From positions 3,146,607 through 3,210,606 of the forward strand of contig CM037866.1 in assembly GCA_021292105.1 (NCBI GenBank): a stretch of 64,000 nucleotides of DNA. Direction: 5' to 3'. The notes under the pieces were generated by a model that was not told the DNA's origin, ran no database searches, and worked only from the letters and a program-made list of their open reading frames with translations. Below are positions 21,630-55,788 of the stretch, piece by piece (positions within the stretch are counted from its first letter, which is position 1; the number at the start of each line of letters is the position of its first letter). The DNA is from Anadara kagoshimensis. Its lineage: Eukaryota > Mollusca > Bivalvia > Arcoida > Arcidae. A program made the translations under genes and the position numbers.

Positions 21630-21804
21630 GAAGATCCTTTTTTGTTTTATGCAGCTTCGATATATTATCAACTCCATATCCATGTTATTTCTGCTGTAAA
21701 AGGGGAAGAGTACGTTTTCTATCCATCAGATTTGCCATCAAAACGGGCATTATGTGGTCACATCTTCATTGCTCATTTGTCTGGAAAAAAATACTGTCGT
21801 TTAG
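21630..21804 (+). CDS. Exon: OTU-like C-terminal piece
   Basis: Acceptor TTTTACAG, donor GTAAAT, phase 0 in and 1 out; 58 residues. EDPFLFYAASIYYQLHIHVI followed by GHIFIAHLSGKKYCRL resembles the end of OTU-type folds, where a GDH-L-AA-x-Y segment leads to IxVIS and then GHI...HYxSL. In that alignment the usual catalytic His before Tyr is Lys, so activity is doubtful. The acidic/Cys part of an OTU domain should lie upstream and was not found. It could belong to a separate upstream gene, but its phase fits the next exon. Confidence 0.55.
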
Positions 21805-24800
21805 GTAAATATATACTGCATAAAACAAGATTATAAATAGATATGTTTTCAATGTTACTCATAACTTATTATTATATTGATTAATATTTTCAATAAGATT
21901 TGACATTAAAGATTTTTCCATTTTGTTTTTAAGCACTTAAACTCATGCTTGTCGGAGTCCTAGACTAAAAATCATTGTAACGATAAATTTAAAATTTCTA
22001 TTGTCTACCATTAATATATTCTGGGGTACTTTCAGCCCAAAGTTAATAAAATGTGCTTTAAAAATCTCAAACTGTTTATCTTGAATAAGACATTTAAATC
22101 AGCAAATCGGGAAGAAAATAGGTTGAACGATTAGTCAAATAAGATTGTGTCAATTCTATGGTGAAATTTTACGTGTTTAGCATAATTTGCAATATTCAAA
22201 GTTTTAATATGCTTTGGCATTGTAATTTGGATTTGTTTTAAGTATAGTCTTCGATTAATCAATTCTTATTTTCATATGCCCCTTAGAGTACCTCATATAT
22301 TTGATATACTAAACGGTAAGTTTATGTAGAGAATAATACATGGTAATATACATATCATACGCCATATCGAACCGAATATCAGACCGTGTTTTTATTTTGT
22401 TTATCACATGCTCAAAATTCCATCATGTTTAAAAAAGATACATGTATTACAGACATTTGTACAGAATTTGTTTATGATAACCTTTCTGATATCGATAGCA
22501 GCCTGGAGATAGGCTTTTCCGAAAAGACACATGCGATATGTGATATGGTTGCATCATTTTAGCCATATCTAAGCATGCAAAAACTACGTTTTTACTTCTA
22601 TGTATATGACAAACGTATACTTGTTGTATCTTATCTTTGATTACGATATGTCTTCATCCAAAACATGTTACATTTATAACGTAACACTTTTGATTTACAA
22701 CTCATCTTTAATGATTCAGATTTAACTGTGAACCGTGCCGGTAATATACCATTCTACAATACTTAGTCAGACTCCTAAGTGACTTATTTATGTAGCTCTG
22801 TTTCAGTTTCTTCCAGTCATCTTTGACAGCTCTTTTATGAACAGATAATTTATAGATCTTTCCTTTCTACATACTACATTTTTGGATTTACCAAATTCCG
22901 TAAACCTGTTAGCGAGTTTAAATGTCAACAGAAAATAAAAAGTATTTGTGATGAATTTTAGAAACAATGTAAAGTACAAATGTTTAAATTACAAAAGATG
23001 TAAAACTACGATGATTTAAATTTCGTATTGTACATAGAATACTCAGTACAAATCAGTTTTTTTTAAAAAATACATTTTATAGATAGTGATTTATGTAGTT
23101 TTTGCCATTAAACACCAGAAACACTTATTCTTATTTTTGTGAAAGTAGGTTTGTTGAATTTTTTTGCAAAAAATGTTCAAATATGGATAAATGATACATT
23201 GCATTTAAATCTAAAACTTACTGTCCCATAAATCATTTTTGGACATTTCCTCCAAAATGGCAATATAGTAAACTTATGTATTATTCTTGCGAACCTTTAT
23301 CTCTATAAACACAAATTAAAAAACAGTCTTTCATGCTTAGAAGGTCTGAAAAAAGAAAATATTTATTACAAAACAATAGATGAATACAAATGGTAATTAA
23401 TTTTAAATACGGCACATTTCTGCAGAAATGGGGTCTTTTACAGGTAAATTATATATAAAGTCATTATTTTACTATTATTGTTATTTTCCCTACTGTATGC
23501 AATTTGAACAGTTCCTTTAATTGCACTATTGCAGTGTATTTTTTTGTTTGAATTAGTCAGCGAGTAAAACTTAAAGATTATAAAAATATTGTGAATATTT
23601 TTAATATGTAAAAACGATTCATATAGGACGAAAACATATTTTACCAAATTAACTTAAGGAAATACATTGCATTAAGGCGTTTACCTGAGTTTTTGATCAA
23701 AATGAGCTGTATGCCATTTCTAAGCATATTCTAATAGACATGCCTAGAAAAAAAAGTTATCGTTTTTAGGATTATCTGTAACCTTCACCTTTGAACCCAT
23801 GACCTTCATTCATATAACAAAATTATTCTTGTGCCGTTAACTACACTATGCTAATAACCATGCATTTACTAAAAGTTTATAGTTATTGAGATAATAAACG
23901 ATTTTAAAATTCGTTTGCATCTGTGACTGTGGACATACATTTATTTATCAAAATGATAATATTGACATATCCTACAATATTATAATATACATGCCTGTAC
24001 AAACATAATATAATTGTCAAGATAATTAACCATTTTAGCATTTGTTTGCATCTTTGACCTTCACATTTTAACATATAACCTTCGCTCATATATCTTAATG
24101 GTTATTATGTAAATACTAACACTACTTTAATATAAACGCCTATTAAAAAGGTGTATAGGTTTTGAGAAAAAGTTTTTTAACAAATACTCATTTTCCCACT
24201 ACGTACCTTATCATTTCCCCATTTTTTGCCTCTACGATTTGTGAAAATTAACACTAGATGCCTTTAATATTTTTAAATGAAGTTTCCTAGCTAAATCGCT
24301 TATACCTTTAAGGGAGATATTTTTATGACTTTCCTTTTACCACTTTTCGGGTCGCCAAGTAAATCCCTTTATTTGAACAAATCTGATATCTCATTACCCA
24401 GACATCTTGATTGCTAAATATCTTTAAATTAAGACTAGAAAGTGTAGAGACGTTGTTGATTAAATTGTTAAAAGTTTACACACGACGGCTGACGCACGAT
24501 GAACGAAAGAAAATGCGAAAATCTCATCTAATTCTTTTGTTTAAGTGAGTTAAAATTGGAATACATTGACGCCTTTGGTAATCTCTAAGGTGAGTGATGA
24601 AGAGGGCACTATTTTTAAACAGTGGAGATTCCCACGCGTTGGGATTATTCCAGATAGAGGTTGGGGATGGTTACTTACTTCCATATATATATATAAATGA
24701 CTGGTTGCAATTTACCCTGAAATATTTATTTTCTAATGCTTAGTAAAAATTAACAATAGAGTGATAGAAAATGAAAGATTCCAGTGTCATTCCTACAACG

Positions 24801-27800
24801 TTTTCATAATATCAAAACCCACCGTCTGTAAAATATTTCTATAAACTTTATAGAAATATATTTACATTTATGATATTTGATTGTATTTAACTCGGTTTGA
24901 GGTCAAATGGAGTTATAGGACTATAATTACATTTTCTAAGATTTAAACAAATGCAAAATGTAAATATAACCAGTTTGCTGTCCAGAAATGGCGTTTATAG
25001 TGTACATTATTTAGTTTGCTGAAGTTATAGCATTATAAATGTCATTTCTAGACAATTCAATGGTTAAATTCGTCACAAACGTTGGTTCAATAAAAGATTT
25101 ATACACTATAATTGTTTAAATCACTAAAAGGTTATCTATTAATTGTGTTTTTAGGACAGGTTAAAATCTTTCAATAATCATTAAATATGATTACCAGTAA
25201 TATCCAACTCAATATATTTGTTAAATTAAGTTATAGAATATTCACCTCAAAATGACATTTCATAGGCAATTGCTCAGATTTGTTTTAAAACAAAATCTTT
25301 AAGCTCATTAAAAACAGGCTGTGGTTTTGGGTATACGTGTTGTCAAGAAATAAGAATCGAAATATGCATTCATCTTTCTTAATCTCTCTATTTATGTTTT
25401 TATCATTATTTGGGAGGTCGGTTTCTAAATCGCTGTATAAATTCCCAAGCCCGAGTTAAATAGAAATATGATAAAATTGGTTGTAATGTTTGTCATAAAA
25501 ACAACAAAAGATACACTTATAGAGATTAAAAGAGAGAAGGTAAATATTGCAGTTTACCTATGAAAATGCATTATTATTAATAATTTCATTTTAAGTTTGA
25601 ATACTGTTAATTTCTAATAATGCATTTAAACATAGTTTTAATTAAGTAAAATAATAATAATTGATCACAGTAAATAACCTAGCTCAAACTGAATAAGAAA
25701 ATGCACAAAGTTCTATCTGTAGTTTGATTATTGTTATCATTATTTGGTATCTGATTTGGACATTAATTTGTAAGCTTCGGGAATCCAATTTGGACATAGA
25801 TTGGGTTGTTTTCTTTCACTTTGATTTGACATTTATTATTATTTATTATTTCAAATAGAAAATGTAAAAGAAGATATACCAACAAGCTTACCACTTAGTA
25901 GCGATACCATTATAGCAATTGACTGTGGAACAATATTCACTGGTTTTGCGATTTCGTCAAATCAATATGACATCTTGAAATGTTTGAAGCTAAATGAGAA
26001 TGTCTTTTGTAAAAAAGATGGCAAAACTTACCCATACAGACAATCAACAATAAAATTAATAAATCAGTCCATATCGTCAGAGACAAATGGAAGCAAAGTA
26101 AGTGAATAATATATCCTTTAATATATTTTTGAAAAAACAACATCATACAGTTAATGGATAAAAGAGACATAAGGATTTATTAATCTCAAAAATATTATGT
26201 TTTTGGGGTCGATAAATCTTAATGTCTATCGAATCAAAAGTCAATAATTGTTTTATTGTATAAACAATAATTTTTATCATCATATTATCTTGTTTTAAAT
26301 TACAACATTTTACTACAAAAAAAAAACCAAATAAATATGTTTGTTTTACTTATCACCAGAAAAGCAAAAAATTCAATCCAAACACAACTGTTTACAGAAC
26401 ATATAGTAAAACTGTCACTTTTATAATTTAAAATTGATGTAACAGTGTTTTTTAAATTAAAAAACAAAACAATTTCTTTTCGCAGAAGTATCTTTTGTGG
26501 TTTCCAATGTTACATTACATAACGTCGTTTGTGTTGTTTGCGCAGTGAACATTGTCCATTCTAACGTCCTATAAACGTCGCGTGCGTTTTTGTGCGGTAA
26601 ACATATCGATTTATCAGGCTTGTTAAACGCTTGTTAAACGCCTTCTCAGCCAATCAGAAAAGTACAAATCATTGGTCATATAATAATACTCTATACTATC
26701 TAGTTTTTTTTAGTTGTCACATTCGGTACTGTCTAGTTTCGAATCCAAGTCGCAAAGATACTAGTGTAAGAAAATGTTTGGTGGATTTCGTCTTATAGTT
26801 TAATGTTCCAACTCAGCACTTTATAGTTGGTAAACTTTTTTCAGTTCTAGAAATAGATAATCTTTTCTCGCTGCTTCATTAGATCAGCATAGTTAGCCCC
26901 AGTGATAGAGATTCCAGCAGGTTTATAATTGATTAACAGAACACCCTTAGAATCCCAAAACACAGTGACCATGACTTTGCCAGCTGGTGATTGGTTTTTG
27001 AATTTCTTTATTGGGGGTGAGCCAGGGTGCTTCCATTGTATGGACTCTTTTTTGGAATCCATGTTTCATCACCAGTTACTTAACGTAAATGGAAGCTCTC
27101 CGGGTTATCATTATAAATGCCAAGAAGCTCCCGATTTGACTGGAGTGTTTGGAAGCGATCCTGCACATTAAGGTTTCTCGGGACCCATATTGTTGATACT
27201 TTTGATATCCCAAGATGGTCATGGATAACCGTGTATACACTTACATGTGAAATGTCACACTCCTTAGCTATATCATCGATTCTAATTCGACGATCATTCA
27301 TGATGGGGGTCTCCACAGACATGACAACTTCCTTTGTGATGGCATTAGCTGGCCGACCTGACCCTGGTTCATTCTTTAGTGAGGTGCGTCCACGTTAAAT
27401 TTAGCTGACCATTTTGCCACTATGGAATAGCCAGGACCACTGTCACCGTACACTTCGACCATTCGCCGGTGAATTTCTTTGGCATTTGATCCCGCTACTG
27501 TGAGGGACATTATTACTGCCCTAAACTCAACATTTTGATTTTTCATCATTGCTTGGTGGTCACCAACTTTTAATGCTTTTAAGAATTACACAAATATGTT
27601 GTGACAAATAAACTTGAAAGTTTATAATGTTTAAAATGCGGAATGTTGTGTTGTCTAAATAAGTAAAGAAAATGTATTACGCTTGGCTGAATACGTTGTT
27701 CTATGAACTTTCTGACTTCCTCTCGTAGTTGATTACCGCCTTACTTACTTATACTTGTAGATAGAACAACGGTTAGATATCAGTGATTTAACAACAGATG

Positions 27801-30800
27801 TTGTTAGCAGATGTGTAAATGAAATTAAAAAAGAAATAAATCAAAAGTTTCAAGGAAGGCTAAAAAATATCCAATACATCGTTGCATTGCCTATAGAGGG
27901 TGACACAGATACGAAAATGTGTTTTATCAAAGAAATAGAACTTCAGGTAATGTCTCTTTCTTTACTCTATTTAATAAAGAGATAACGCAAGTGAGTGAGA
28001 GAAAGCGGAGTAAGAGTGGCAAAAGAAAAACGTTCAATGAAGAAATGTCATACATGTACTAAAATATATTGTTAAAATTCAAACTGAAAGTGGAATGTAA
28101 TTTTATACTTTGTAAACATAAAAAATTTATATTCTGCGATAACGACTCTACTTCAATTTAGTGATTGGTATGTAAAGAAAATACAAAATAAAAACACAAT
28201 TTAAAATAAGCACACTTTACCGATTACAACTGGAGTATAACTGGATAAGAGAACTAGGCACTGCTCCGCCGTATGGATGTATTGACAACATCATTCAAGC
28301 ATGGATTGTAACAATGTAAATGTTTTACATTTGTTCAACAAAACTAAACGTAACAAAAGAAGTCATGGACAACGGCATGAAAACCAACCCAATTTCCATG
28401 ATGTTTTTTTATCTTTCACCATTCCTACAGTAACCTTTCGGATTACACCATATCCAAACTAAATTTTATTCTATATCACTATTACATCTTAGACAGTTAC
28501 ATGGATAATGCATTTCTAACACTATTGTAAATTCTAATACACCAAAATATAAACTTAATGCTATCATCATTGATATTGCTTTTAACAGATTATTTAATCA
28601 TGTCCTGCTCCGAAAAACGATTTTCAGAACGATGATCAACGGCAATATCTTAAATAACCCTAACCAGGATATAAATGCTATACATATGTCTTCAGAATAA
28701 ACAAATACAATCTAAAGTTCCTGCTTATTTCATCTGCTACCTCTAGTTTCCCACTTTTACAATAAATCCGTTGCATCTAGAATATTCAGCTATAGACAAA
28801 TTGCAATGATAGAATTACATATCACATGAGTCTTAATTTTACAGCTGTTCTTCATCAGTAGAGCTTAGACCAAAATTATGAAACCAAGTTTTTTTCCAAG
28901 ATGTTGAAAAGAAACCATAAAGACTAAAATAAAGTTTACCAAAATTAGCTAAGTTAGAACGTTTAATGAGGGAGTATATCTAGTTTTTGAAGAATTTTAA
29001 ATTTTAACTAGCAGCAAATTTATAAAATAGTATATTTCTGACAATTATACACAATTATTGGCTACTAGGTTTGAGATATCCTCCGGACACAAGCAGAAAT
29101 ACCGGCTCAGGGGTATAAACTACAAATTATACGTCTTATTTTTTTATTTTAATTCAATCTTTATAATTGTACTCCACCTACCTGCTCTTGCTCGTTTTTT
29201 TCCTATATTTAGGGACCAGTTGGACATGTAATAACAGATGATCTCAATATGATTGATAACACCAAATTAAGATCTTCACTCTCAAAAGGTCATAAATATG
29301 GAGAACCTTAACCTTTTTCATTTTTAATGTACGAGACGGGCGAGATTTTCCCCCATATGGAGCTCACTTCCTGTCGATTATCGTGCAAATAATTCATTGA
29401 AACAAGTAATAATTCAAATAGGTTGATCGAATACCAAATATTTACGTTTTTTTCGCTATTCTGGCTGATCTCCAAGTGTAGCGTTTGAAGAGTCGCGATG
29501 ACGTGATTTCTTTTGATCGGGTCAAAGTTCAATTCAGATCGATAACCACTGTAAGACAATAAGCGACCGGCATTCCCACATGCATCAACCATGATCACAC
29601 AGTATATATTGCGGGAAGATACAAAATTTGCCGATTTCAAGTCAGATAAATTGATAACCATAGTTACCTGACACAAACCTATTACGAGGTTAGCATAACC
29701 ACAGTATATGACTTCTACGGTATATGCATTTTGTGCTCTTTGCAAAGAGTAGTGAGTGTCTTACCAAAATTGTTAAGTATAATGTCTTTAGATTTACGAC
29801 TTATATTAAAGTTGTCAGTTTTGTATATGTCTGGCTCATCATCGAGACAAGGTATATACATGTAGGTAACATCATCATATAATATATAGTCATTTATGGT
29901 GCCAGTTTTTGCATTAAGATCACCTGCAATTATTAGGTCATATCGATTATATTCAATTGAAATCCGTAAAATGATTTCATTTAGTGTCTCTATGCCATTA
30001 TCATAATCTTTACCACAGTAGAAATTAGAAACCCTCTGGGGCTATATATGGGAAACACAGTATTATACCCCTTGCATCAATAGAACATGCTACGTTTTCA
30101 ATTAACAAGAGGACAACATCTTCTAAATTATCATAAATTTGAATGACATTTGACACCGATTTTTTAAGTAACACTGATACTCCACCATACACTTTACCTG
30201 TATGAATCGGATGGTGTTTTCTTATTGATTGAAAAATATTAAAGTTTTAAGAAACATAGTTATTGAATTCTTTAAGCTTTCTTTGAAATATTTCCTGAAA
30301 AGCAATACATATATAATCATTTATTATATCAAAATTAAGTTTTTGTGCTTATTGAGTTTACTCTTTAAACTGTCTATATTCTATAATCACTTTACCTTCC
30401 TTCATATGGGTTTTGTCACATCCTTATGCTGATACTTTGTATTCATTGTCCGCACCTGGTTCATTTTCTTTAGAATACCTATTAAAGAGTTTTCTGAGGA
30501 ACACAATATCACTTGATGAATCGTCCCAGCGGAACATATCACTATCAATTATCAATTTATCATACCATAGATAGGGTTTCTTCCCCTCTTCTCTGGTTCT
30601 CAAAAGATATTTAGTCAACAATCTTCTAGTGTGTCTTACACGTTTTGTAAAATCTTCATTGAATTTATGTGTGCTGCCTTTTAAACATTTCTTGCTTCTG
30701 ATGATATGGCATATTTGTCACTATAATTTTCAAGAACTGGTTTAGGACCAGTTTTTTGCTGGAAGTCGCACACAGTTCGTCATTTCAATTCTATCGACAT

Positions 30801-33800
30801 CACTCATCCTTAAAACTTTTTTAAGAAAGACTTGACACTAATTTTCACGTCTCCTTTTTCGTTTTTAATACCATAAAATATAAGATTGTTTTTTTTGTGG
30901 ATTTCGCTTGGACATTTTCTAGTTCTTTACTTATAGAGGAGACTGATTGTTTCAACTGAGCATTTTTTCTTTCCAGTTCTTCTACAAGTTCATCTAGCTG
31001 GTCAATTTTCCCTAACATCTGAGCGCAGTGCTTTATACAGTCACTACACATCTCCTCAGAAATGACTCGTTTACTTTCAATTGAATACCGTGCACTTCCG
31101 GTGTGATTTTACAACCCAATTTGTTTGGGAAATTTCCTATGCGGACTTTATACAGTACAATGTCTATACCCATCTTTACCTGAATACGTTATCACCAAAG
31201 TTTTATACCATTTATTTTTCATCTTCGCCATTTATCGTCACAAAACATATTTTGCAAAGCCCTGCCGCCTTGTGCGTGTTTTCATCTTGATCACCAGAGC
31301 GCTTTAACAGACGTATACAACAAATATCTTGTTGTCCCAGCTGATAAGGCTACTAACAACATCATTCTGGTTTGTAAGAGATTCTACATTGAATGTTTAA
31401 TTAAGGAACTTTATTTAGATAGTATAACAGATACCCTACATGTATTTTTACAAAAAGATGAAGTTCTTACAATCATATTGGGGCTTCTTCAGTCTTTTAA
31501 AGATTAAACACTTGACCTTTACTACTTGCATATGATTCCTAAACTCCATAAAATCCACACAAGTAAAACTATGTAGCAGGTTTTATCTAAATGTATTACT
31601 AAATAATTATCAAAAACTCTAACACAAATTTTGACAGTCGTCAAAGATGGTCCTTAGTCTGATTTATAAAAAGTTTATTCTACATCTATGATCAACCAAA
31701 TGCGAATTCTTGAAAAGTCTAAACCATTTCTAAACCATCTTGCTTCGTATGATTAATTTCGTGTAAAAAGTATAAATCAAAATCAAACATACCATGTCCG
31801 AATCACTATCCAAAAGCAAAGTATAAACTTTGAAATTGATCATGACAAGTCACGTAAGATATGTTAATTTTAATTTTTCTACGCTTTACACCACTATCCT
31901 TTATTCTAAATTCAAAGAACATCTTAAACAAATTATTCACTTGTAGTTCTTTTACAAAAATGGTAAACCAAGATATAAATATCAAGTGTAGAACAGGAAT
32001 TTTGGTTGTCAAGCATCATACGGATTTCAAGCAAATATATCCTGAAGGTATTACAAACATATATTGAATGATGGCGTTTATGATAAAAAACATATTTGTT
32101 GTGTTTGGTAATATAATTGTACAATGAACAATCGGTATATCAACGGGTACAAACAGTGCACTACTACTTACTGATTTGTTTCTGTATTTTTATGAAGCAG
32201 AAATTATGCAGAACCTTGTTAAATCTGGAGACAAGACTTTCGCAAAATCATTTAATTCCACATATAGATATAAAGATGACGTTCTGAGTCTTACCAATCC
32301 TAAATTTGAAGAGATTATGTGAATGCAATCTATCCTTGTGAGCTTGAAATAAAGTTCTGTCTCATATTTAGACTTTGACCTCAATTATGACGCCGTGAAA
32401 GGCTACAATTAAAAGTTTAAGACAAAAATGATGACTTCAATTTTTTATTATCAACTTTCTTTTTCTATGCAGCAATATTCCTGTCTCTCCCGCTTATAGT
32501 GTATTTGTTTCCCGATTATTACGCTATGGTAGAGCTTGTTCCTACTACGGGGACTTTTGTACAACGACGTATGCTGCTTACAATTAAATTGTTTTCTCAG
32601 GGAAATTGCTAGCCTAAGCCTATAAAGTCCCTCAAAAAGTTGTATATTACAGTAATGATGATAAGTTTGATGTCTTTGTGCCCAATATTGCCCTGGATAT
32701 ATTCCATGTTTCTTTTAGCGAATTTTGATTGCACACGTGGTTGGTGTAGCTAGCTTAACAGGAAATGCTTATCCTTCCAGAACACCCGGTCTCACTTCCC
32801 TGGTGGAAGTTTACGAGTCTTACCTAATTTTTCAGTTTCAAAGATTTGACTTTGCTTCTGGATTATAATTGGGCATGGATATATATGTTTTTTTATTGTG
32901 TTACATTCTAAAATATAGAAACAAGATACTAGTGTTTAACAAAAAACTAAATTATTTTAAAAATTTGTTTAAATTATATTGGATGCTTGTTTAGAAGTTA
33001 AACATTAGATATCATATCAACGTGTTACCCTACTATTTAAGCAGAAACTGGGATGCGCTGAAATAATAATTTTATTACTTTTATTTGTGCTACATGAAAT
33101 AAATAGCGTATTTAATATAAGTGTTTAATATTTTGCAGGCTAAAATATCACGAGACAGGTTGTCAGTTGTGACTACAAAGGAAGTTGTAAAGTATCTTTG
33201 CTTAAAGTATAGTGATAAATATGAAGGTAAATGTTACAATATATTCTATGTTAAAATGGATAAAACGAAATAGAAAAAAAGTATCTGATAAAAATGCATT
33301 ATATATAAGAAACGCAATCAGGAACAGATACAAATTATTGATGATACGAACACCCCAAAAGACGAGAGCAAAATAGTAAGCCTACTGGTTTTTAAACTAT
33401 CAACTTTAGACGTGCACTGATCGTTTGTAACACCATTATCTGTGCTTCAATTTTTTTCTTACATACTTCAACTTAGGCTTTTAAATTTTAGTTTTTTTCA
33501 GAAATTCAAAAAACCGTAAAACATTCTGAAAACATCGATTTTGACATAAAGTATCCTTTTATCTATCACAAAACAGATATAATTATTAAAGTCATTAAGG
33601 GATACAATATAAGTTGTTATAAACACTCATTAGAATATATTTTATAAATGTGTTTATGACACCCGAGCATACCACCAGCAAAACTTTCTTTATAGAAACC
33701 GTTGAGATTGACTTATTTGTCACTGTTACTCCAGGTTATGTAATAAATGCCAAGTATTGTACTATCCACCTTGTACATGTAGTGTAATACTGTTTTCATG

Positions 33801-34952
33801 TAATGTAATAACACCTTGTTATGTAATAAAAATAAGATTTCACGTAATTTAATAAAATTTCGGTGTAATGTAATCAAAAACAAACATACTAATCCATGTC
33901 CGAATCACAATCCAGAAGCAAAGTAAACACTTTGGAACTGACAAGTTAGGTTAGACACGTGAACGTCCACCAGGGCAGTGAGGCCGGGTGCTCCGGAAGG
34001 GTACGCACCTCCTGTTTAGCTAGCTACAACCGCCACGTGTGAAATCAAAATTGTGTGAAAGGAACATGGTACTATGGGACGTTAAATATATTTGGGGCAA
34101 TCCTTACACACGTGACGGGTGTAGTTAGCTAAACAGAAGGTGCTTACTCTTCCGAAGCACCCGGTCTCACTTCCTGACTTGTTATTTCAAACGTTTTTAC
34201 TTTGCCTCTGGATTGTGACATGTTTTAGCAAGTTCATTGTGGAAACAACATAGCAAACATACAAAGTATCGGGTTACCAAACGCATTCTGTAAGCTGAGC
34301 ATGCACATACACACACACACACACACACACGCATATATATATATATATATATATATAATTAATGCTGATGTTTGCTGGTTTTTAAAATAAATTTGATCAA
34401 TATGACAGCTCTACACGCAAACCCGTTTGAGACTATTCTGTAAACGATCAAGTTACTTTTTATAAATGCAATTGAATTATTTTACATTAAAAAATGTATG
34501 ATTCTTTTTCATTTTTTTAACATAGACAGGGGTGATGTTTCTGTTTTAAGAGGAGCTATACAGATGATTAAGGACAAAATAGACAAAGAAGAAGAGGTAT
34601 ATAGTGCCTTTCATTGGTTTATTGTTTTTTTATTATTATCCATTGAAGTGTAACCTTTCAATTTGCTTATATTGTGTCACGTAGTTTTTTAGATTGTGAT
34701 TGTACCACAGATATCTGTTAAAAACTTCACGTATGCTTGGAGCTAGTGGTCAGTTGCTTTCTACATCTAGCTAAAAACTGTATTGATGCGTCGAATGCAT
34801 ACAATAGAATACGTCTAACAACCACAGGCTTAGAAGTATTTCGAAAATTACTGGTAGAAAATATTTTGAATCAATACTAAAAAACAAGTATTGTGCAAAA
34901 CGCTGGAAAATGTTTACTTTAAAATCCTTACTAATAACGAGAGAGAGAAAGA

Positions 34953-35016
<64 letters not shown>

Positions 35017-36849: not shown

Positions 36850-36902
<53 letters not shown>

Positions 36903-37448: not shown

Positions 37449-37507
<59 letters not shown>

Positions 37508-39659: not shown

Positions 39660-39693
<34 letters not shown>

Positions 39694-40214: not shown

Positions 40215-40275
<61 letters not shown>

Positions 40276-40378: not shown

Positions 40379-40425
<47 letters not shown>

Positions 40426-41500: not shown

Positions 41501-41546
<46 letters not shown>

Positions 41547-41760: not shown

Positions 41761-41806
<46 letters not shown>

Positions 41807-44321: not shown

Positions 44322-44383
<62 letters not shown>

Positions 44384-45729: not shown

Positions 45730-45811
<82 letters not shown>

Positions 45812-48800: not shown

Positions 48801-51800
48801 TAAGTTCATAATGTTATCCTTTTAAATTTTAACAATGTGGTATTTTGTATATGGATATGATAAATACTACTTAGAACAATAGCTACATGCATTCAGATGA
48901 AACATACGCCGTTTTACCTTATAATCTCCTCTGAAATCGCCGCCATTTTGAATTACGATGATAGTAATCAAGCAGAATGCCACATTCAGACATATTTCAT
49001 GTCAGATCTGTAATATCTGGTAATTGTAAATAATAAATATGATCAACCGAGGTCACTGCTTTGCCTAAATTGGAATCTTATGATTTTTAAACATAAAACA
49101 TGAACAAAAAACCGCCATTTTGAATTTATTGGCAGCCATCTTGAAAATGGACAAAATTTGGATGGCAAACGATGGATATATAATGTACATGATACAAATA
49201 ACCTGTAGACCAAGTTTCATGCTTGTATCACAAAGTGAACTATTTTTGACTTAGCCGCTCCACTATATGGAAAATGCTAAAAATGACTTTTATTAACCAA
49301 AACGCTTGTCATCAGCAAATTCTATATATAGAATCAGAAGGCATCCATCACAGAAAATTTCTTTGATTTTGGCTAATGCGCAACAGGTGGGCGATATAGG
49401 CCGTATTAGGTCTCTTGTGTCATTCAATATGCAAATCAATAGGCTATCGATCGAAAACATATAACGTATCGACCATATTGTATATTATGTGTTTCGTTTT
49501 TAAAGCTATTTTGCCCTTAATACTATTCCATCGTTAAATGACGTTTAAATTTCGGTGGGTCTTCACTTTTACTCTTGTAAGTTGTAGTTTCCTTCGATAT
49601 TTGTCTACCGTCCTGTTTATTACATATGTTTCAAATTTCAGGCAAAAATTAAACTACCGGAAATCAAGTCATTTCAGGAGATTATGCAAAAAAAGGCAAG
49701 TATTTTATTCTTTTATTGAAATTTTAAAAAAATAACTACTTTAACCATAAAATAAATTTTGGCTTTATAACAAGCAATCCAAAAAGAACACAAAAGGTAC
49801 AAAGGCAAACATCGGAACGTATTGACTTAATGAAAGACATTTTGTAGTGAAATGTTAAAATGTTGAACAATTATGTTTTTATATCTTCCTGATAGGTTAC
49901 ATATCAACGTAAAATTAAATAGTTCATTTTTGGCATACGTATATTACAACAAATATTTATTATATTTTTGTTTACTGTATTTCCATCAATTGAGTACAAA
50001 AAGTTTTTATATTTTATTTCTTTCAATTAAAAATGTTTCCATTAAACTATCAATAAAATGAATATAAAATGCTCTGACCTAACCAAATTATATCTTTTAA
50101 TGTAAACAAAGTTATTTAGTTTTCCTGTACATAAGAAAACCCTTGGAAAATTTTGGAAATTTGATTAAATTTAAATTCCATTTGGGCCTCATTCAGAGTC
50201 ACATCAGGGTATTTAGGCTCAGGTAGGTTATTGTTGTTTGTGTTATTTTCCAGATGTAACCCTCAACGATAGTCAAATTATTATATCACATTTAAAATTT
50301 TACCGAGTAAGAATATATAGAAGGGAAACTTTTGACGTAGTTATATTTGATAATTTATAATTGTTCTATGTACAGAATTAAAATTACTCTTGGATGAATA
50401 AAAAACTTTTTTCTTATTAGGCCAGTAAATTTTGTATAGAAATTTGACAAATTTCTGTGATTTTGTTAGAAAGTACGACTCTATTCGTGCATTTTCCATG
50501 TGCACTTAATTTGTAGATATACAGTAATTATTTATTTCTCTCAATTGAAACAATCTAGACGAGACATTGTCGTTTTTTAAACTAGAAAACGTATCCAAAA
50601 TATAATTTATGAATAATTAAATCAAACATTTCTTTTCTATCTCCAGTCAAATAAAACTCTCAAACAGCTAAAGAAAGAAATTAATTACCCAGGATTACCC
50701 TAGATATATTTGCAACCAACAGTTCCATTTTCCTTACACTCAATTTTTATTACGCACGTAGAGGATATAGCTAGCTATAAAGGAGGCGCTCATCCTTTCG
50801 GAGTAACCATCCTCACGTCTCTGGGTGAAATGTCATGTGTTCAACATAATTTGTCAGTTTCAAAGTTTTAATTTTGCTTTAGGATTTGATTTTTCAAATG
50901 GATTGAAATAGTTGTTTTTCATATTAATTGATTAGCTTTTTTTTTTAAATATCCGTATTAAACTGCAGACAAAATAGGAAAAGAATAGAATTAGCATAAT
51001 GCAATAGAATAAGACACAAATAAACAAGCTCAAACGTTTAAATTTTGCGCCCATTCTAAGAACGCTTATCAAGGCCCTCAAAAAATTTATGGCCGTCATC
51101 ACAGTAATGTTGATAGGTTTGATGTCTCTGTGTACAGGATTGCCCTGGATATATTTGACGTCTCATAGTTCCATGTTCCTTTCACACAATTTTGATTACA
51201 CATGTGTTGGGTGTAGCTATCTAAACAGGAGGTGCTTTCCCTTCCGGAGCACGCGGACTCACTTCCCTGGTGGAAGTTCACGTGTATAACTAAACTTTAC
51301 AGTTTCAAAGTTTTTACTTTGTTTCTGGATTGTGATTCGAATATTAGGTTAGTATGTTTGTTTTTCATTATAAAGAGAATACTTCTAATTTATTGTGTCC
51401 ATTTGGTCTTTTTATTCATGTACATACAGCTGTATTTTTATTTCTACAGCTGATTCACTTATTTCGAACATCTAGCTGAGACACTATAGATTTTAATTTA
51501 ATAGCATTCCATACAATTTATGTATAAAAATATGCTTTTATAGCAATTTAACCTACATGATAATTATTAGATATTTGTTCGTCTGATTTGAGGCACCTGA
51601 AGACTGGTTTCCTTATAGCCTATCAAGACCCTTGAAAATTTTATGGCTATCGTTACAACATTGTTGATAAATTTGATGTCCATGTTTTTAAGATTTTTTT
51701 GGATATGTTTGGCGTCAAATAGGTTCCTGTTCTGTTTATTTTCAATCTTGTTTACACAAGTTGCTGACCTAGAAAACTAAACAAGGGTAGCTTAAAATTA

Positions 51801-54800
51801 CGGAGTATCCAGCCTCAATTTCCTAATGGACGTCATGTGTTAAATTCAATTTGTCATTTTTAAAGTAAACATTTGTTTTGGGGTGGTGGTTTGTACATGG
51901 TCTGATTGTTTTTATTATCACATCTTACTTATCTTTGACATTAACAGCAAGAGTGAGTTCTTGTTCATTTTTAATGTTTCAGCATTCATATGATTTGGAA
52001 GGGGAGGTCGAAGTTAAACCTGAAATACTTGAAAATGGACTCGGAATAAATACAGGAGACAAGGTGAGTGACAATATTCCAAGCAGTTATTTTATATTCT
52101 CTACAATCTGAAATAGAAGTTAGATTAGTAAAAAAATCTTATTAATTAACAAAATGTAAAAATACACAAAAACATTAACTAACAAATTGCACTGTAACAC
52201 TACATTAATATGAAATTTCGAATTACTTGTTTGACCAATTTAAGTTACACATTTGAATTGATTCTATACAATTAGTATTAGAGTACTATGTATGTTCTGT
52301 TTTGCTTTAGCATACATCTATACCTAATTTACAATATTGTTCAATTGACGTATCGCTGACCACACTCACAATGTTTCAACAAAAGGCCTGGCATGCTTAA
52401 ATTACACACAAAAATAATTAAAACTTGGCCTGAATTGTACCATTTAATGACGCCCCTGGCACCAGTAGGTCATAAGTTGCCGTGAAGCCGCTTTGGTACC
52501 GTGATGGCGGCCTTTGTCGGAACAATCTGGGCGTTGCCTGCGATCCGTCAATTATACAGGCTAGAGACGTCTGATTGCTAACTTAAAATAATGAGTTTAT
52601 GAGTAAAACTAAAGACAGTTTCTATTTGGTTTTTGTCAATCAACCATTTGTATTAGAACTTTTAATTTCATTATCTTTTATTTAATTTTTAATATTGCAT
52701 GGCGACATAAAACGTTTTGTGGACATTGCTACAGGTAGGGTTGCAACCTCACTGCATCTACAATGTATTTTTAAGCAGCTTGCTTTATTGTATAACATCA
52801 GCAAAATTAAATTAATATAAATCTTTTTTGTTTTTAAAGGTATTTGTATTGAGATATTTGCTGAACTTGTTAACATTATTTGATCTGCGGTCGTTATTTC
52901 ATTTACTCTCAAACTCTATTACATTGTAAAAAATGGGTTACCTTTTTTATTTGTTTATTTTGGGAATAAAAAAATAATTCGTCCAAATCAAAAGCTTAAT
53001 AAATACTGTTAAAAAGGAAGTATGATATAAAAGTAAGACACTGTTTATAATCGGATGAACTGATATTAGTAGTATTGTGTCTGACTGAAAACTCTTTAAG
53101 GCAATAAATAACGTGGCATAAAAGCTTAATTGGGGTAAAGGATTTATATCCCCGCTGTGTATCGCTCGGACATTCTTTACTTTACCTTAACAGTTTATTA
53201 TCTTAAAATATAATTTTACAATTTTGGTCCAAACAAACTCAACTGATAAGGTATTCTATTCCGAATGCATGTGTTTCTGGTAACCGTTTGCCGAATCATT
53301 TCTGGATATTAAATGTGTCAAAACCCCCTCCCCGTGATTTTTTCTTTCGGTTCCACATGTCTATTTCCGGTTTGGATGCAATATATATTTACTGATAAAT
53401 ACGACGAGAAAAACTAGTTTGGTAAGTCACATTTAAAGTGAATTTGAAATAAAACGGCCTTCGTTGTATTTGAACATCATAAACGCAAAAAAAGCTGCAC
53501 AAATGTCACAGAAATTGGCCATCATGTAGTTGCAAATAATTAACAGACGTAGAAGTCGTCGGGTATTAGTTTTGCGGAAAAAGTTTCGTTTCAATAGAAC
53601 TAAATCGCACAACCATCCCGATTTTCTCTAGTTTTACTGTCTCAACACCTCTCAAGTGTAGCTCAATTTATTTTTTCCATTCGAAATTTATTATTATAAA
53701 CAGATAAAATTTCCATATTTGCATGTCAAGTTACCAATCGTTAACAGGGTGATGGCGAAAAATAATTCCCAAACATTGACGTCACTTGTAGAAAAGGTTT
53801 CATGTTCTGGCCTACCTGTTTTCCAAACAGAGTCTGATTTTGTGTTCAGATAAAATGAAAAACAACAGGACTCGGCCTAAAATATCATTTATTTTATAGA
53901 ATGAGTTTTGTATCATGGTAGACTTCTTCTCTGTATGGTATAAACTTTTGTCAAAATGTTCACCCTGAAAAAAATCGAAGTTTTTGACTCTACCTCTAAT
54001 GACAAACACCATCCCCTTTACTAAGGCTTCCATTCATATGTTAAAAGGTATCATTGGTGACTGGCTTGACGACTGGACACTGATTAACACTTTAAACCGT
54101 AGTGACTAAATCAATCATCACATGAGTTTTGTGAATCATGGGTGGTCCTGGGCCCTTGTGATGTACTACTGGTTTAGCATGGTTAAACTTTACCATGCAT
54201 TTAGTGTATATGCATTTGAAGTAACTAAAACAACACAAGTTGTTGATAAAGGTAGGTGTATCGTAACAACTGAAGATCCTTGAATGTTCCATGCTCTAGA
54301 TCTAGTAAACATACTTATTTACACGTAACCCATCGCCTCGGAAGTGACCCTGTGACAATTTTGGAATATTCCGTAGACGATTTTTATCCACAAAAATAAG
54401 ATAGCGCGTAACCAGAAACATCCGTATTGGACGGCCGTCTAGTGCTGTTTCACATGACAGTTATAGCTTGCAGGAGGTGTTGCAATGCCTCGATTGGGAT
54501 ATATGTTACATCACATCACCCTCGACTGAGATCATACGATATCGGTCACAAACAGGTGACAGATTCTATTAATCTTGTCAGTTATAATGTTTTTACTATA
54601 ATATGGTTACGGATCTTTATGTTTGCTTCTGATTTTCAGCTTTCTTTCAAAGAAGCAGTAGAAGATGATATAGATAAAGATACAGACGACATCGATAAAA
54701 TGGTATTGTCTGCAAAACATGGAAAGTGGGAAGAAGTTTGGGAAAAACTGGAACAGAAGCCTTATATAGTGAATTGTATTCCAGAGGGACGTGCCTGGTC

Positions 54801-55788
54801 GGCTCTCCATCAAGCTATTTTTTTAGGAAACCTTGAAGCGGTCAAAAAACTTGTAGAAGATTTTGAAGCAGATCCCGGATGTTACACAAAACCTGATATT
54901 GCCAAGGTTGCAGAACCAGGAACAAATGCAGTGTTTTTGGCTAAAAAACTTCACAAAAATATAATTCATGATTATTTATTGAAACAACTTGTTATCAGGA
55001 ATCTTGCAATAAAAAGTCAGGATATCAATTTTGTAGACCACAGAAATAACAAAGCATACCCATTTCAAAAACATTCGTTGTTGAAAATAACCATGGCTTC
55101 TTACAAGTCCATTTTCTCGAGTGATAAATATCCTTGCAGAAACCAAATGGAACACCTATCAATAATAACAGATGGTATATTTAAAGCTTCAGATGCAGTG
55201 TGGAAGGATGCAGCAGTAAAGATATACCATACACTCTATGGAATCGAAAGGGGTCAAACGGAAAAACTTCTGAATTCTCAATCTAAAGAAGAATTCTTTG
55301 GAAAACTTGTCAGTTTGTATACAGGGAATTCAATATATCCTTTTCTCACACCAGCTCTTTCACGACAGCGAAAGACTCCATTTAAACCGCTTGCAATAGA
55401 TCTGTCTGTAGCACCATTTGCCCTAACCCTGACAGCCGTTCTAATGTACTGGAAAGACATAGAACCATTTGATGGAGTAACATACCGTGGAGTTTCATCA
55501 AATGTTGTCGATCAGTATAAAGAAGGACAAACATTAATGTATATATCCTTCATCTCTAGCAGTAAGCAACGATCTGTGGCTAAGGGATTTGCCAAAGATC
55601 AAGGAACATTGTTCATTTTTCTCAATATTGCCGCCGATGCAACTTGGCAACCGCGGTTTATCGAAAAGTATTCAGAGTTTAAACATGAAGAGGAGTGCTT
55701 GTATCCTTTAGGTGCTGAGTTTTCTGTTGTTTCTGTTGACAAAACAAAACGAGAGGTAACACTTACTCTGTTAAATTCGACAGTGTAA
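21630..55788 (+). CDS. Multi-exon gene: (OTU-like?)-HSPA12-like pseudo-ATPase-ankyrin-like-ADP-ribosyltransferase
   Basis: Gene-level entry; joined exons 21630-21804, 25859-26097, 27761-27946, 33139-33226, 33502-33550, 34530-34596, 44281-44319, 49642-49695, 51983-52063 and 54640-55788 give about 708 residues, 5' partial. Every junction is phase-compatible and all frames are open. Residues 1-58 are weakly OTU-like. Residues 59-268 match HSPA12-type Hsp70 proteins in order: phosphate-1 motif (76-87), the VALP strand (179-182), the helix equivalent to EPEAASIYC (about 213-221), then a jump to the VLRGAI helix near the end of the ATPase domain (251-256). The middle of the ATPase domain is absent, so nucleotide hydrolysis is unlikely. 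Residues 269-326 are linker, 327-440 ankyrin-like, and about 470-708 ADP-ribosyltransferase with R609, S632 and E676/E678. No transmembrane segment is obvious. I infer an intracellular immune or stress role, unproven. Upstream exons, promoter and start codon were not found. Confidence 0.75.
21805..25858. other. Intron, no recognised gene
   Basis: 4.05-kb AT-rich intron. A diverged copy of the 2.35-kb intron segment is at about 25010-25095, and low-grade repetition of CCTTCAC/ACCTT phrases is at about 23770-24090. Nothing else could be supported. Confidence 0.55.
25859..26097 (+). CDS. Exon: HSPA12-like phosphate-1 region
   Basis: Acceptor TCAAATAG, donor GTAAGT, phase 1 in and 0 out. The split codon joined to the previous exon gives Glu. 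It reads DTIIAIDCGTIFTGFAIS, the D-x-G-T-x-x-[ST]-G phosphate-1 loop of the Hsp70/actin ATPase fold in its HSPA12 wording (usually VVAIDFGTTxSGYA). The following ~45 residues are shorter and more diverged than in HSPA12A/B. The conserved PT-LL strand and FG-x-A segments are not evident. Confidence 0.85.
26840..27549 (-). pseudogene. mariner transposase pseudogene in intron
   Basis: Minus-strand fragments in changing frames read ISHVSVYTVIHDHLGISKVS (second helix-turn-helix), then WVPRNLNVQD, VTGDETWI (first catalytic Asp environment), QWKHPGSPPIKKFK, AGKVMVTVFWDSKGVLLINY (second Asp) and GANYADLMKQ. These are the ordered signatures of mariner transposases. The N-terminus begins at about 27549 (MMKNQNVEFRAVIMSLTV). 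Stops and frameshifts make it inactive. It sits wholly inside the intron between the first two Hsp70-like exons, in reverse orientation. Confidence 0.9.
27761..27946 (+). CDS. Exon: HSPA12-like ATPase, middle of lobe I
   Basis: Acceptor ATACTTGTAG, donor GTAATG, phase 0 in and out; 62 residues. Helix IEQRLDISDLTTDVVSRCVN is followed by NIQYIVALP, which aligns with the HSPA12 segment 'I-x-WV-TVPAIW' after its long helix. The usual W and the AKQFM motif are replaced (IEGDTDTKMCFIKE), as expected for a degenerate member. Confidence 0.8.
28200..29318 (+). pseudogene. 5' part of a decayed PLE
   Basis: The clearest piece is 29213-29315, reading GPVGHVITDDLNMIDNTKLR and ending HKYGEP. This is the conserved N-terminal block of FDFSTLYTTIPH-type PLE proteins (GHVVTGDLNIV..LR...GPKYREP). 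The coding thread then breaks and resumes at 31313. The upstream part (about 28240-28760) is full of stops and assigned only by position. Confidence 0.6.
28850..29125 (-). repeat. Fossil retrozyme unit, minus strand
   Basis: On the minus strand it matches the 340-bp unit: ACCCCTGAGCCGGTATTTC-like start, then AAATATACTATTTTATAAAT, AGATATACTCCCTCAT, TTAGCTAATTTTGGTAAACT and CAACATCTTGG. The hammerhead end shows CTACTGATGA but no intact stem II or GAAAC box. It is dead and lies within the decayed PLE. Confidence 0.7.
29760..30220 (-). pseudogene. LINE ORF2 endonuclease fragment
   Basis: Minus-strand frames read HPIHTGKVYGGVSVLLKKS, then SNFYCGKDYDNGIETLNEII and YDLIIAGDLNAKTG. GDLNAKTG is the conserved exonuclease-endonuclease-phosphatase (APE-like) motif of L1/Tx1/CR1-type LINEs. 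A frameshift lies between the first two segments. No reverse transcriptase follows. Confidence 0.8.
30424..31051 (-). pseudogene. LINE ORF1-like fragment (coiled coil plus RRM-like)
   Basis: The minus strand begins with a coiled-coil-like segment (LDELVEELERKNAQLKQSVS), continues in a shifted frame as NNLIFYGIKNEK (typical after the coiled coil of L1-type ORF1), and ends INEDFTKRVRHTRRLLTKYL then YDKLIIDSDMF, the C-terminal domain signature. At least two frameshifts or stops are present. Confidence 0.7.
31313..32890 (+). pseudogene. Decayed PLE reverse transcriptase with 3' tail
   Basis: It resumes the PLE thread with YNKYLVVPADKATNNIILVC, then frames with many stops show YSTSMINQMRILEKSK, FYASTLYTTI-type motif A debris, TIGISTGTNSALLLTDLF (motif B, altered) and YRYKDDVLSLTN, where the YIDD box has become YKDD. 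The 3' end carries the coding tail and the UTR blocks (TAGCTAGCTTAACAGG, CACCCGGTCTCACTTCC, TTGACTTTGCTTCTGG). It is inactive. Together with 28200-29318 it is one element split by the LINE insertion. Confidence 0.85.
33139..33226 (+). CDS. Exon: HSPA12-like 'EPEAA-YC' equivalent
   Basis: Acceptor TTTTGCAG, donor GTAAAT, phase 0 in and 1 out. It reads AKISRDRLSVVTTKEVVKYL, then CLKY, aligning with AGI...LIIALEPEAASIYC in HSPA12 proteins. The helix and its Y-x-C ending are recognisable, but the EPEA core is TKEV. Confidence 0.75.
33502..33550 (+). CDS. Small exon: late ATPase segment
   Basis: Strong acceptor (TTTTTTTCAG), weaker donor GTATCC, phase 1 in and 2 out. EIQKTVKHSENIDFDIK aligns with the HSPA12 helix-strand 'LLQ-x-AV..AF....IIP' that directly precedes VLKGAV. 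The next exon supplies exactly that. If this exon is skipped, the alternative acceptor at 34526 restores frame from the previous exon. Confidence 0.6.
33903..34080 (-). mobile_element. PLE 3' tail, minus strand
   Basis: The reverse complement of the reference tail: CAGAAGCAAAGTAAA, CACGTGAACGTCCACCAGGG, GAGGCCGGGTGCTCCGGAAG and CTCCTGTTTAGCTAGCTA. It faces the plus-strand tail at 34108-34215. Confidence 0.85.
34108..34215 (+). mobile_element. PLE 3' tail, plus strand
   Basis: ACACGTGACGGGTGTAG, TTAGCTAAACAGAAGGTGCT, GCACCCGGTCTCACTTCC and TTTTTACTTTGCCTCTGG occur in reference order. It lacks the central GGTGGAAGTTCACGTG block. It forms an inverted pair with the tail at 33903-34080. Confidence 0.85.
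34310..34362. repeat. (CA)n and (TA)n microsatellite
   Basis: CA repeats followed by TA repeats inside the intron before the VLRGAI exon. Confidence 0.9.
34530..34596 (+). CDS. Exon: HSPA12-like 'VLRGAI' segment
   Basis: Two acceptors fit: CATAG before 34526 (joins from 33226, phase 1) and ACAG before 34530 (joins from 33550, phase 2). Donor GTATAT, phase 0 out. GDVSVLRGAIQMIKDKIDKE matches the 'P-x-D-x-GLAVLKGAV-x-FG' segment near the end of the HSPA12 ATPase domain. The tail becomes charged and helical. The paired acceptors would allow one small exon to be included or skipped without changing frame. Confidence 0.7.
34957..35022. repeat. (TC)n-(TG)n microsatellite
   Basis: About 20 TC repeats run directly into TG repeats. 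The open frame across it is an artefact of the repeat. Confidence 0.95.
35940..36250. repeat. Left subterminal ~80-95 bp repeats
   Basis: GACCGCGCATGCTC or a near variant (GGACGGCGCATGCTC, ACCGCGCATGCTTAG) recurs near 35987, 36069, 36151 and 36232, with TGTTCTAAAT and CCTGTCCTGG-like phrases between. The right end carries ACCACGCATGCGCT near 42291 as a single inverted counterpart. Confidence 0.8.
36374..36570 (+). pseudogene. Transposase N-terminal HTH fragment
   Basis: The frame LRRSGKTVVDTRQELINSEG then ITRQAISSFLERYRQTGSLS resembles the Tc1/paired-like helix-turn-helix with its R-x-x-x-TGS-x-x-D end. A shifted frame then gives RPRRLNDEHMNFID. No DDE domain follows. It supports membership of the element in the Tc1/mariner superfamily. 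Confidence 0.6.
36596..36685 (-). mobile_element. SINE tRNA-head fragment
   Basis: The minus strand reads CGTGGCCTAATGAATAAGGA (A-box-like) and later GAGCTCCAGTCCCGCTGAC (decayed B box), the same head family as 13588-13942 and 60560-60904. No body is present. Confidence 0.6.
36838..36901. repeat. (AAT/ATT)n microsatellite
   Basis: A short AAT run turns into a long ATT run, giving a self-complementary stretch. Similar AAT runs lie at 40216-40270 and 41503-41545. Confidence 0.95.
37425..37540. repeat. (AAAT)n then (CATT)n microsatellite
   Basis: A long AAAT array is followed by about nine CATT units. Related AAAT/TTTA arrays lie at 39663-39732 and 40379-40430, and a CA run at 38336-38366. Confidence 0.95.
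40800..41098 (-). mobile_element. tRNA-derived SINE nested in the 7-kb element
   Basis: The minus strand starts GTAGCTCAGTTGGCAGACTG (A box and D arm), then GGTCGAACCCCGACC (B-box-like), followed by a non-tRNA body with GTGGTGATTTTTTTT and the phrase that on the plus strand reads GGTTCTTTAGCGTACCACGC. The body type is frequent in mollusc genomes by recollection. It is a younger insertion inside the TIR element. Confidence 0.75.
42285..42700. repeat. Right subterminal GCAGAGATT repeats
   Basis: About ten GCAGAGATT/CCAGAGATT motifs occur, several spaced about 40-60 bp apart and joined by TTTTCCTAGGACAGGACAGG or TTTAGAAAA phrases. They mirror AATCTCTGC-type motifs of the left end and could be transposase binding sites; this role is inferred. 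Confidence 0.8.
42773..44280. other. Intron remainder, no recognised feature
   Basis: AT-rich DNA between the TIR element and the 39-nt exon. No frame, RNA gene or repeat could be supported. Confidence 0.5.
44281..44319 (+). CDS. Linker mini-exon, 39 nt
   Basis: Acceptor TTTCGTTTAG, donor GTAAAA, phase 0 in and out; LKENFKKNLIEMQ. Charged and probably helical, with no family match. A long CT microsatellite starts about 8 nt after the exon, within the donor region. The exon is symmetrical, so skipping keeps the frame. Confidence 0.5.
44326..44381. repeat. (CT)n directly after a 5' splice site
   Basis: About 28 CT repeats follow the donor of the 39-nt exon almost immediately. Confidence 0.95.
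44382..44600 (+). repeat. Fossil retrozyme unit, plus strand
   Basis: It matches the 340-bp unit in order: TTAAATTTCCTGCCAGTT, CTCATGCAAAATATTTTCTT, then a decayed hammerhead. The ribozyme core is CATCTGAGGAG (the UGA of CUGAUGA lost), stem II AGGAG/CTCCT is still paired, GAAA has become TAAA, and ACGGCCGTC is kept. It is predicted inactive. Confidence 0.75.
44810..45645 (+). repeat. Degenerate tandem repeat with AATCAGTGTGTTAAGTTCTA
   Basis: Phrases such as ATCAGTGTGTTAAG, ACAAGGTTTGCAAACAGATT, CCTTGATC..TGTTCA..GGTCA and GTAAAAACGCTAAA recur about every 110-200 bp. The repeat reappears at 45850-45905 and resumes at about 49268 after the TIR element, which therefore inserted into it. Short frames here are not conserved between units. 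Confidence 0.65.
45712..45809. repeat. (CT)n-(AT)n microsatellite
   Basis: CT repeats followed by about 22 AT repeats. The 89-codon frame across it is an artefact. Confidence 0.95.
45918..49265. mobile_element. ~3.35-kb TIR element carrying an uncharacterised gene family
   Basis: The left end TAGTGGAGCGGCTAAGT and its complement at the right end (ACTTAGCCGCTCCACTA) begin imperfect inverted repeats of roughly 165 bases. These include TTGTGATACAAG.ATGAAACTTG and CCATTTTCAAGATGGC on both sides. A 9-base insertion separates the left arm from the right. Target duplication may be TA but is not certain. The flanks are one degenerate tandem repeat interrupted by the element. The interior carries the minus-strand pseudogene at 47205-48512. 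Confidence 0.8.
47205..48512 (-). pseudogene. Broken member of the 'EADTR...DTDVVV...FHAFTGCD' family
   Basis: Four minus-strand frames follow one another: 48512-48207 (MDSDLALAHLLQYTVANSQD), 47980-47642 (ADVMIIDGLALVNERSPG, TFDEYA), 47726-47385 (NKTELFNLL, APCSEEKADTRIFLHIKHAD, SSSNTDVVIGVAVFN) and 47398-47204 (RGKDKIHELKISLGPRSVAR, FFHAFKAIS). They match in order a large family of uncharacterised proteins in cnidarians, molluscs and fish, with motifs DG-A-VN, EEADTR, DTDVVV and FHAFTGCD. Here HAFTGCD is HAFKAIS, and frameshifts plus the gap after 48207 break the gene. The acidic motifs suggest a nuclease-type fold; that is speculation. Its place between TIRs suggests this family is carried by a DNA transposon. 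Confidence 0.7.
49642..49695 (+). CDS. Linker exon with probable GC donor
   Basis: Acceptor AATTTCAG, phase 0; AKIKLPEIKSFQEIMQKK. The natural donor AAG|GCAAGT fits the extended consensus of GC-AG introns and keeps phase 0 to the next exon. No GT donor is found before the frame closes (TGA a few codons later). The exon is lysine-rich with no family match. Confidence 0.5.
49740..50644. other. Intron, no recognised feature
   Basis: AT-rich DNA without supported genes or repeats, ending at the first of three PLE tails. Confidence 0.5.
50645..50910 (+). mobile_element. PLE 3' tail, diverged
   Basis: It has the RT C-terminal end (AAACTCTCAAACAGCTAAAG region), TAGCTAGCTATAAAGGAGGC, CCTTTCGGAGTAACC and the GTTTCAAAGTTTTAATTTTG block, in reference order. 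Confidence 0.75.
51055..51370 (+). mobile_element. PLE 3' tail, well preserved
   Basis: It starts CTTATCAAGGCCCTCAAAAA (the last RT codons) and continues with GGTGTAGCTATCTAAACAGG, CCTTCCGGAGCACGCGGAC, GGTGGAAGTTCACGTGTA and TTTTTACTTTGTTTCTGG. It is truncated at the 5' end so that only about 300 bp remain. Confidence 0.9.
51610..51905 (+). mobile_element. PLE 3' tail, decayed
   Basis: CCTATCAAGACCCTTGAAAA, TTGGCGTCAAATAGGTTCC, AGAAAACTAAACAAGGG and GTATCCAGCCTCAATTTCC match the reference tail with many changes. It ends about 80 bases before the next exon's acceptor. Confidence 0.7.
51983..52063 (+). CDS. Linker exon, 81 nt
   Basis: Acceptor ATGTTTCAG, donor GTGAGT, phase 0 in and out; HSYDLEGEVEVKPEILENGL then GINTGDK. 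Acidic, with no family match. Good splice sites and an in-frame join to the last exon make it the best supported of the linker exons. Confidence 0.65.
52064..54639. other. Intron before the ART exon
   Basis: No gene is visible. Near 54430-54450 the phrase ACGGCCGTCTAGTGCTG equals the 3' half of the retrozyme hammerhead (stem III, GTC site and stem I), a possible retrozyme relic without its CTGATGA half. Confidence 0.5.
54640..55788 (+). CDS. Last exon: ankyrin-like region plus ADP-ribosyltransferase
   Basis: Acceptor GATTTTCAG, phase 0, stop TAA at 55786-55788; 382 residues, numbered here within the exon. Residues 16-115 form ankyrin-like helices (MVLSAKHGKWEEVWEKL; WSALHQAIFLGNLEAVKKLV; NAVFLAKKLHKNIIHDYLL). 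Residues 145-382 fit NAD:arginine ADP-ribosyltransferases: TYRG with R283, YISFISSS with S306, KHEEECLYP with E350 and E352, then LGAEFSVVSVD. This is the R-S-ExE set that binds NAD and modifies arginine. No signal peptide or GPI signal is visible, so an intracellular enzyme is likelier than an ecto-ART. The frame extends upstream to 54427, but that part is intronic because the acceptor and exon phases place the start at 54640. The target protein is unknown. Confidence 0.88.
   Translation, partial: LSFKEAVEDDIDKDTDDIDKMVLSAKHGKWEEVWEKLEQKPYIVNCIPEGRAWSALHQAIFLGNLEAVKKLVEDFEADPGCYTKPDIAKVAEPGTNAVFLAKKLHKNIIHDYLLKQLVIRNLAIKSQDINFVDHRNNKAYPFQKHSLLKITMASYKSIFSSDKYPCRNQMEHLSIITDGIFKASDAVWKDAAVKIYHTLYGIERGQTEKLLNSQSKEEFFGKLVSLYTGNSIYPFLTPALSRQRKTPFKPLAIDLSVAPFALTLTAVLMYWKDIEPFDGVTYRGVSSNVVDQYKEGQTLMYISFISSSKQRSVAKGFAKDQGTLFIFLNIAADATWQPRFIEKYSEFKHEEECLYPLGAEFSVVSVDKTKREVTLTLLNSTV

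Follow-up and report, generated by a model that had tools for sequence, protein, structure and literature searches.

Does a single gene in the window analysed here (64,000 nucleotides of Anadara kagoshimensis DNA, C10:3146607-3210606 of a 1.115-Gb assembly) join a relative of Hsp70 to ankyrin repeats and an ADP-ribosyltransferase (ART)? A first-pass annotation had proposed such a chimeric gene, with ten exons and a degenerate Hsp70 part of the HSPA12 type. With a probability of about two-thirds (0.68), the sequence is best read as one plus strand gene whose protein would consist of a shortened remnant of a HSPA12-like nucleotide-binding domain (NBD), followed by a linker, by ankyrin repeats and by an arginine-type mono-ART.

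A seven-exon gene model

Seven plus strand exons lying between 25859 and 55788 were spliced in phase to give 621 open residues ending at a stop codon. The splice borders were GT-AG throughout, except for a GC-AG border after exon E. The compatible phases and open frame previously claimed for this gene were borne out for these seven exons; there was no evidence for any beyond them, and the ten of the first-pass annotation had not been itemised. No start codon was found for the seven-exon model and, as exon A starts in phase 1, an upstream exon is required. A first exon proposed near 21630 was rejected: its phase fits and it has both an acceptor and a donor (GTAAAT, at 21805), but it produced only chance-level matches near the paralogs and no Pfam match.

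Exon A (25859-26097) was recognised by profile match, splice borders and phase as a shortened HSPA12-like exon 1, and contains the phosphate-1-like motif DCGTIFTGFAIS that had been pointed out earlier. Exon B (27761-27946; IQYIVALPIEGDTDTKMCFIKEIELQ) is the counterpart of HSPA12-like exon 2, with the phases of the paralog exon and a profile match collinear with those of A and C, and is weak alone. Exon C (33139-33226), also identified by collinear profile match, corresponds to a shortened HSPA12-like exon 3; by eye the B/C border falls in the same place as the paralog exon 2/3 border, and in the same phase. Exon D (34526-34596), in which the previously noted VLRGAI segment is located, is probably the rump of HSPA12-like exon 4, judged from its phases (1 at the start, 0 at the end), which are those of paralog exon 4, and from a by-eye likeness of GDVSVLRGAI to PDLVILEGSV; it is the weakest of exons A-D.

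The linker is represented by exon E (49642-49695), which is open and in phase with a GC donor, and by exon F (51983-52063), which encodes 27 aa and adjoins the ankyrin-ART exon. Exon E gave no tblastn match; by eye it resembles IPSFSEQISEAQK of the Tegillarca protein P0002 and VPPTFEQQVIQAQ of the copies on contig C17, at the same place in these relatives. Exon F was matched by tblastn both in P0002 (E 0.002) and in exon F of the C17 paralogs (4e-8). Exons E and D are the least firmly supported of the seven. Neither an acidic linker exon nor an E2 exon, both present in paralogs, was found between 34 and 54.7 kb of the window, which counts against the model. The last exon (54640-55788) encodes ankyrin repeats, an R-S-ExE ART and the stop codon, in agreement with the original description.

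Sequences resembling mobile elements lie in and around the introns. Mariner-type transposase-like fragments were seen by eye on the minus strand at 26847-27585, within the A-B intron. An open frame resembling reverse transcriptase (IPMGTNCAPLLADLF; 8938-10047, plus strand), is presumably Penelope-like; the B-C intron contains a decayed relative of it (about 31.8-32.9 kb, plus strand), and similar pieces recur near the paralogs. Comparison of the open reading frames of the window with one another returned mostly repeats.

The ankyrin-ART exon and its copies in the genome

The last exon scored 37.9 bits against PF01129 (cut-off 22.3; E 1.6e-9), so that its ART part passed a profile search, whereas the ankyrin families stayed under their Pfam cut-offs (Ank_2, 21.6 bits against 27.3). 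The ankyrin cut-off was passed by the Tegillarca protein P0006 (30.9 bits). In an AlphaFold2 model of the last exon, built from five sequences, the ankyrin part was fairly confident (residues 11-110, mean pLDDT by block 69-92), and Foldseek paired the model with ankyrin chains at a probability of 1.00 (best E 0.017, none at 0.001). Most residues of the ART part had a pLDDT below 50. The exon is 50% identical to Tegillarca KUTeg_024727.

The genome contains 21 PF01129 matches at E 0.001, and the regions upstream of six further copies were examined: c1-c4 at C17:40.827-40.957 Mb, c18 at C18:44.099 Mb and c10p at C10:3.021 Mb. The ART triad was identified by eye as TYRGV, FISSS and EEECL in the window, c1, c2, c18 and c10p, and R, S and ExE were kept in all five of these intact aligned copies. 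dN/dS of the ART was usable in six of ten pairs, the other four having saturated synonymous sites and several of those used being near saturation; the values were 0.37 (c1/c2), 0.17 (c1/c18), 0.22 (c2/c18), 0.20 (window/c1), 0.23 (window/c2) and 0.30 (window/c10p). The window ART thus shares with the PF01129 arginine ADP-ribosyltransferases a family score above the cut-off and the R-S-ExE order, and differs from them in being fused to ankyrin and Hsp70-like parts. The usual members of this family are secreted or GPI-anchored. The conserved triad is the only ground on which the ART may be called an effector. A 227-bp stretch at the 3' end of the ART exon (55696-55922) has a 93% copy at 57975-58199 on the plus strand, which is a relic of a local duplication.

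Domain order in paralogs and in a second species

All four C17 copies showed HSPA12-like exons 1-4, an acidic linker, E, E2, F and the ankyrin-ART exon, in that order, each within about 9-12 kb. These copies are recent duplicates and were taken as one event. In c4, exon 1 matched the HSPA12 exon-1 profile at 90 bits (E 6.5e-30) and the joined Hsp70 part passed PF00012 (23.3 bits, cut-off 20.6), and by these sequence scores its HSPA12 nature is judged firm. The phases in c4 were 0, 0, 1 and 0 after exons 1-4, if a frame break within exon 4 is discounted, and the linker exons were likewise followed by phase 0; the series of window exons A-D and E-F was the same. Phosphate-2 and adenosine motifs were present in altered form in the C17 copies. 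Altered motifs of these copies include RFGST, against DFGTT in HSPA12 loci, and VDIGGQRTE, against IDIGGGTLD in the coral relative. The HSPA12 branch itself, comprising the Oculina HSPA12-like protein P0007 and the HSPA12 loci of this genome, shares the exon-1 region and collinear segments with the window gene and differs in being without ART; typical loci carry DFGTTYSGYAFS, the C17 copies RFGSTKSGYAFS and the window DCGTIFTGFAIS.

Exon F was kept in six of six paralogs. The c18 copy has E2, F and the ART, with a weak linker match (E 4), and no Hsp70 match was detected in about 48 kb upstream of it; likewise, no Hsp70 part was found in about 40 kb upstream of c10p. Both results count against the fusion.

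Protein searches, in which the candidates sharing most words were scored (n=8000 and 7997), returned relatives from Tegillarca and Oculina, and the closest proteins of known source among the candidates scored were from the blood clam Tegillarca granosa. In the model KUTeg_025031 the sequence extends from HSPA12-like exon 1 through the linker, E and E2 to the end of F, and KUTeg_025030 combines HSPA12-like pieces, the linker, E and the ankyrin half of the ART exon. The two models overlap; they are computed, carry consecutive numbers and lie on contigs of equal stated length. KUTeg_024727, which counts against the fusion, has F, ankyrin and ART behind another N-terminus. All three share parts of the window order, none has the whole of it, and the Hsp70 part is much shorter in the window copy than in the Tegillarca models. 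Occurrence of the same order in other bivalves had been named as a check, and the two overlapping models provide it in part. Neither of these two (proteins P0005 and P0006) had a Pfam Hsp70 match, which again counts against the fusion, and with a mean pLDDT of 44.9 the predicted structure of P0005 was too uncertain. When P0005 and P0006 were combined with the coral protein in one profile, it matched Hsp70 PDB chains (best E 6.9e-7), a match that the coral row may carry.

As the order recurs in four paralogs and, in part, in a second species, the fusion is well supported without cDNA; the chimeric gene of the first-pass annotation stands in its domain order, and not in its ten exons. These data indicate that the fusion architecture is real in this lineage, that the window gene belongs to a small family of such genes in this clam and that the window copy is reduced and diverged.

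One gene or two

The window could instead hold two adjacent genes: a short HSPA12-like one would end with exon D or beyond it, and a linker-ankyrin-ART gene would start near exon E. Exon D also reads past its donor to a stop 18 codons on, and could thus end a separate gene; the implied D-E intron is 15 kb, which counts against one gene; and KUTeg_024727, like the copies at C18 and C10:3.02, has the appearance of an ART lacking HSPA12. However, the phases agree across the D-E gap, and in the C17 copies and Tegillarca models the HSPA12-like part continues into the linker, E, F or the ankyrin part. Chance pairing is also unlikely, although HSPA12-like sequences are common: 141 matches were scored of 288 candidates, in keeping with the HSPA12 expansion in bivalves that had been invoked, and well over 100 exon-1 matches were clustered on contigs C3, C6, C9, C17 and C19. 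Among the HSPA12 matches listed, in which the window Hsp70 part is too diverged to figure, only C17:40.8 Mb falls within 300 kb of a PF01129 ART match, so abundance does not account for the pairing. Two genes are consequently considered unlikely, and single transcription of the window gene likely, as far as sequence can tell.

Two HSPA12 loci of contig C17 (L048 and L050, at 30.39 and 30.81 Mb) are near-identical, lie ~0.4 Mb apart and carry an in-frame repeat (TSPKRDYVEE, about ten residues) before HSPA12 exon 1.

Possible maintenance or decay of the Hsp70 part

A less probable reading, and a rather improbable one, is that the locus is decaying, with an intact ART exon and a window Hsp70 part that is a relic no longer made into protein. 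The exons are shortened and segments lost, mobile-element fragments have been inserted, and each C17 copy carries a stop or frame break, which was counted against the fusion. However, all seven window exons are open with usable splice sites. Relative to c4, c1 and c3 had 5 and 12 indel columns, with counted substitutions of 1 and 2; this excess of indels far over substitutions among the three copies suggests, and does not prove, assembly error. In the Hsp70 exons of c2 and c4, leaving out codons with gaps or stops, there were 19 synonymous changes over 275 sites and 19 non-synonymous changes over 1018 sites (dS 0.073, dN 0.019; Fisher p 6e-5). That dN is lower than dS speaks for selection acting on the Hsp70 part.

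The Hsp70-like signal of exons A-D

Window exons A-D measure 239, 186, 88 and 71 bp, against 306, 213, 148 and 646 bp for paralog exons 1-4, giving a Hsp70 part of ~195 aa against 437 aa in the paralog. Phosphate-2 and adenosine motifs were not found on the plus strand of the first 56 kb of the window. The word "degenerate" used in the original description fits both results.

The exon-1 sequences of 20 HSPA12 loci in this genome, but not window exon A, were made into a profile. Exon A was the top match to this profile among 2123 open reading frames of the window (both strands, at least 20 aa), at E 5.5e-4 and 17.8 bits; the next had an E of 1.8, and the best of 1660 forward open reading frames of the c18 and c10p loci an E of 0.55. 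The A-D chain matched a five-row HSPA12 profile in two collinear pieces at 17.0 bits, a score reached by none of 20000 chains of random window open reading frame pieces, of which the best eight all contained exon A; as A-D were first chosen by eye, this test was not blind. Plain alignment of A-D, which is weaker evidence, was equalled by 8/500 (C17), 24/500 (Tegillarca) and 8/500 (coral) shuffles. The assignment of B, C and D would follow from order, phase and collinear match, and is weak for each exon alone.

The Hsp70 character expected from profile searches was therefore recovered with the HSPA12 exon-1 profile in exon A, but not with Pfam Hsp70 (PF00012), which had no match in A-D, a result counted against the fusion. 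The best Pfam match of A-D was LepB_N (E 4.6e-4, 20.3 bits, under the family cut-off of 25); a PDB search with A-D returned no Hsp70, the Pfam and PDB matches (LepB_N, DUF2321, ClpA) being below cut-off or not significant, and A-D alone had no protein relatives at E 10 among 531 candidates. The Hsp70 evidence from the window by itself is weak; it is the paralogs that tip the balance towards the fusion reading. That A-D are open by chance and have no Hsp70 ancestry, as the failure of single-sequence searches to find Hsp70 and the individual weakness of B, C and D might suggest, is very improbable given the exon A match to a profile built without it, the random chains and a phase series equal to that of the paralogs.

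Proposed function of the fusion protein

If one mRNA spans the Hsp70-like through the ART exons, the single gene favoured here would give a fusion protein, which we infer to be intracellular. Its Hsp70 part would lack ATP hydrolysis, in view of the segments missing in the window and the altered motifs of the C17 copies, and could act as a binding or regulatory scaffold; the "sensing module" proposed for it earlier is of the same inferred kind. The ankyrin repeats may choose the partner, and the ART may act on arginines in a protein of the host or of an invader, in stress or immune defence. Tentatively, these genes might encode effectors that are specific to ark clams and work inside the cell; a catalytically dead HSPA12 part, fused to ankyrin repeats, would sense ligands of stress or of invaders and would control an arginine ART.

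For the bivalve TRADD-N multidomain immunity proteins, the available part of one account (PMC8195603) describes a lineage-specific shuffling in which HSP70, ankyrin and ART domains take part, without assigning HSP70 and ART to a single protein; TRADD-N and the death domain were not seen in the window gene. No report of HSPA12 and an ADP-ribosyltransferase in one protein was found in the literature excerpts available. The earlier statement that no protein of this order had been described needs qualifying in that the Tegillarca models, entered as "hypothetical protein", already show the order in part. The novelty is a combination of known families in a new domain order.

The tentative effector family would be, if true, a so far undescribed coupling, in one chain, of a Hsp70 relative to protein ADP-ribosylation. 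An enzyme-linked HSPA12 copy would give a readable output, as the target of the ART would point to the HSPA12 ligand. It would also show that a chaperone-like domain has been recruited into a lineage-specific effector gene.
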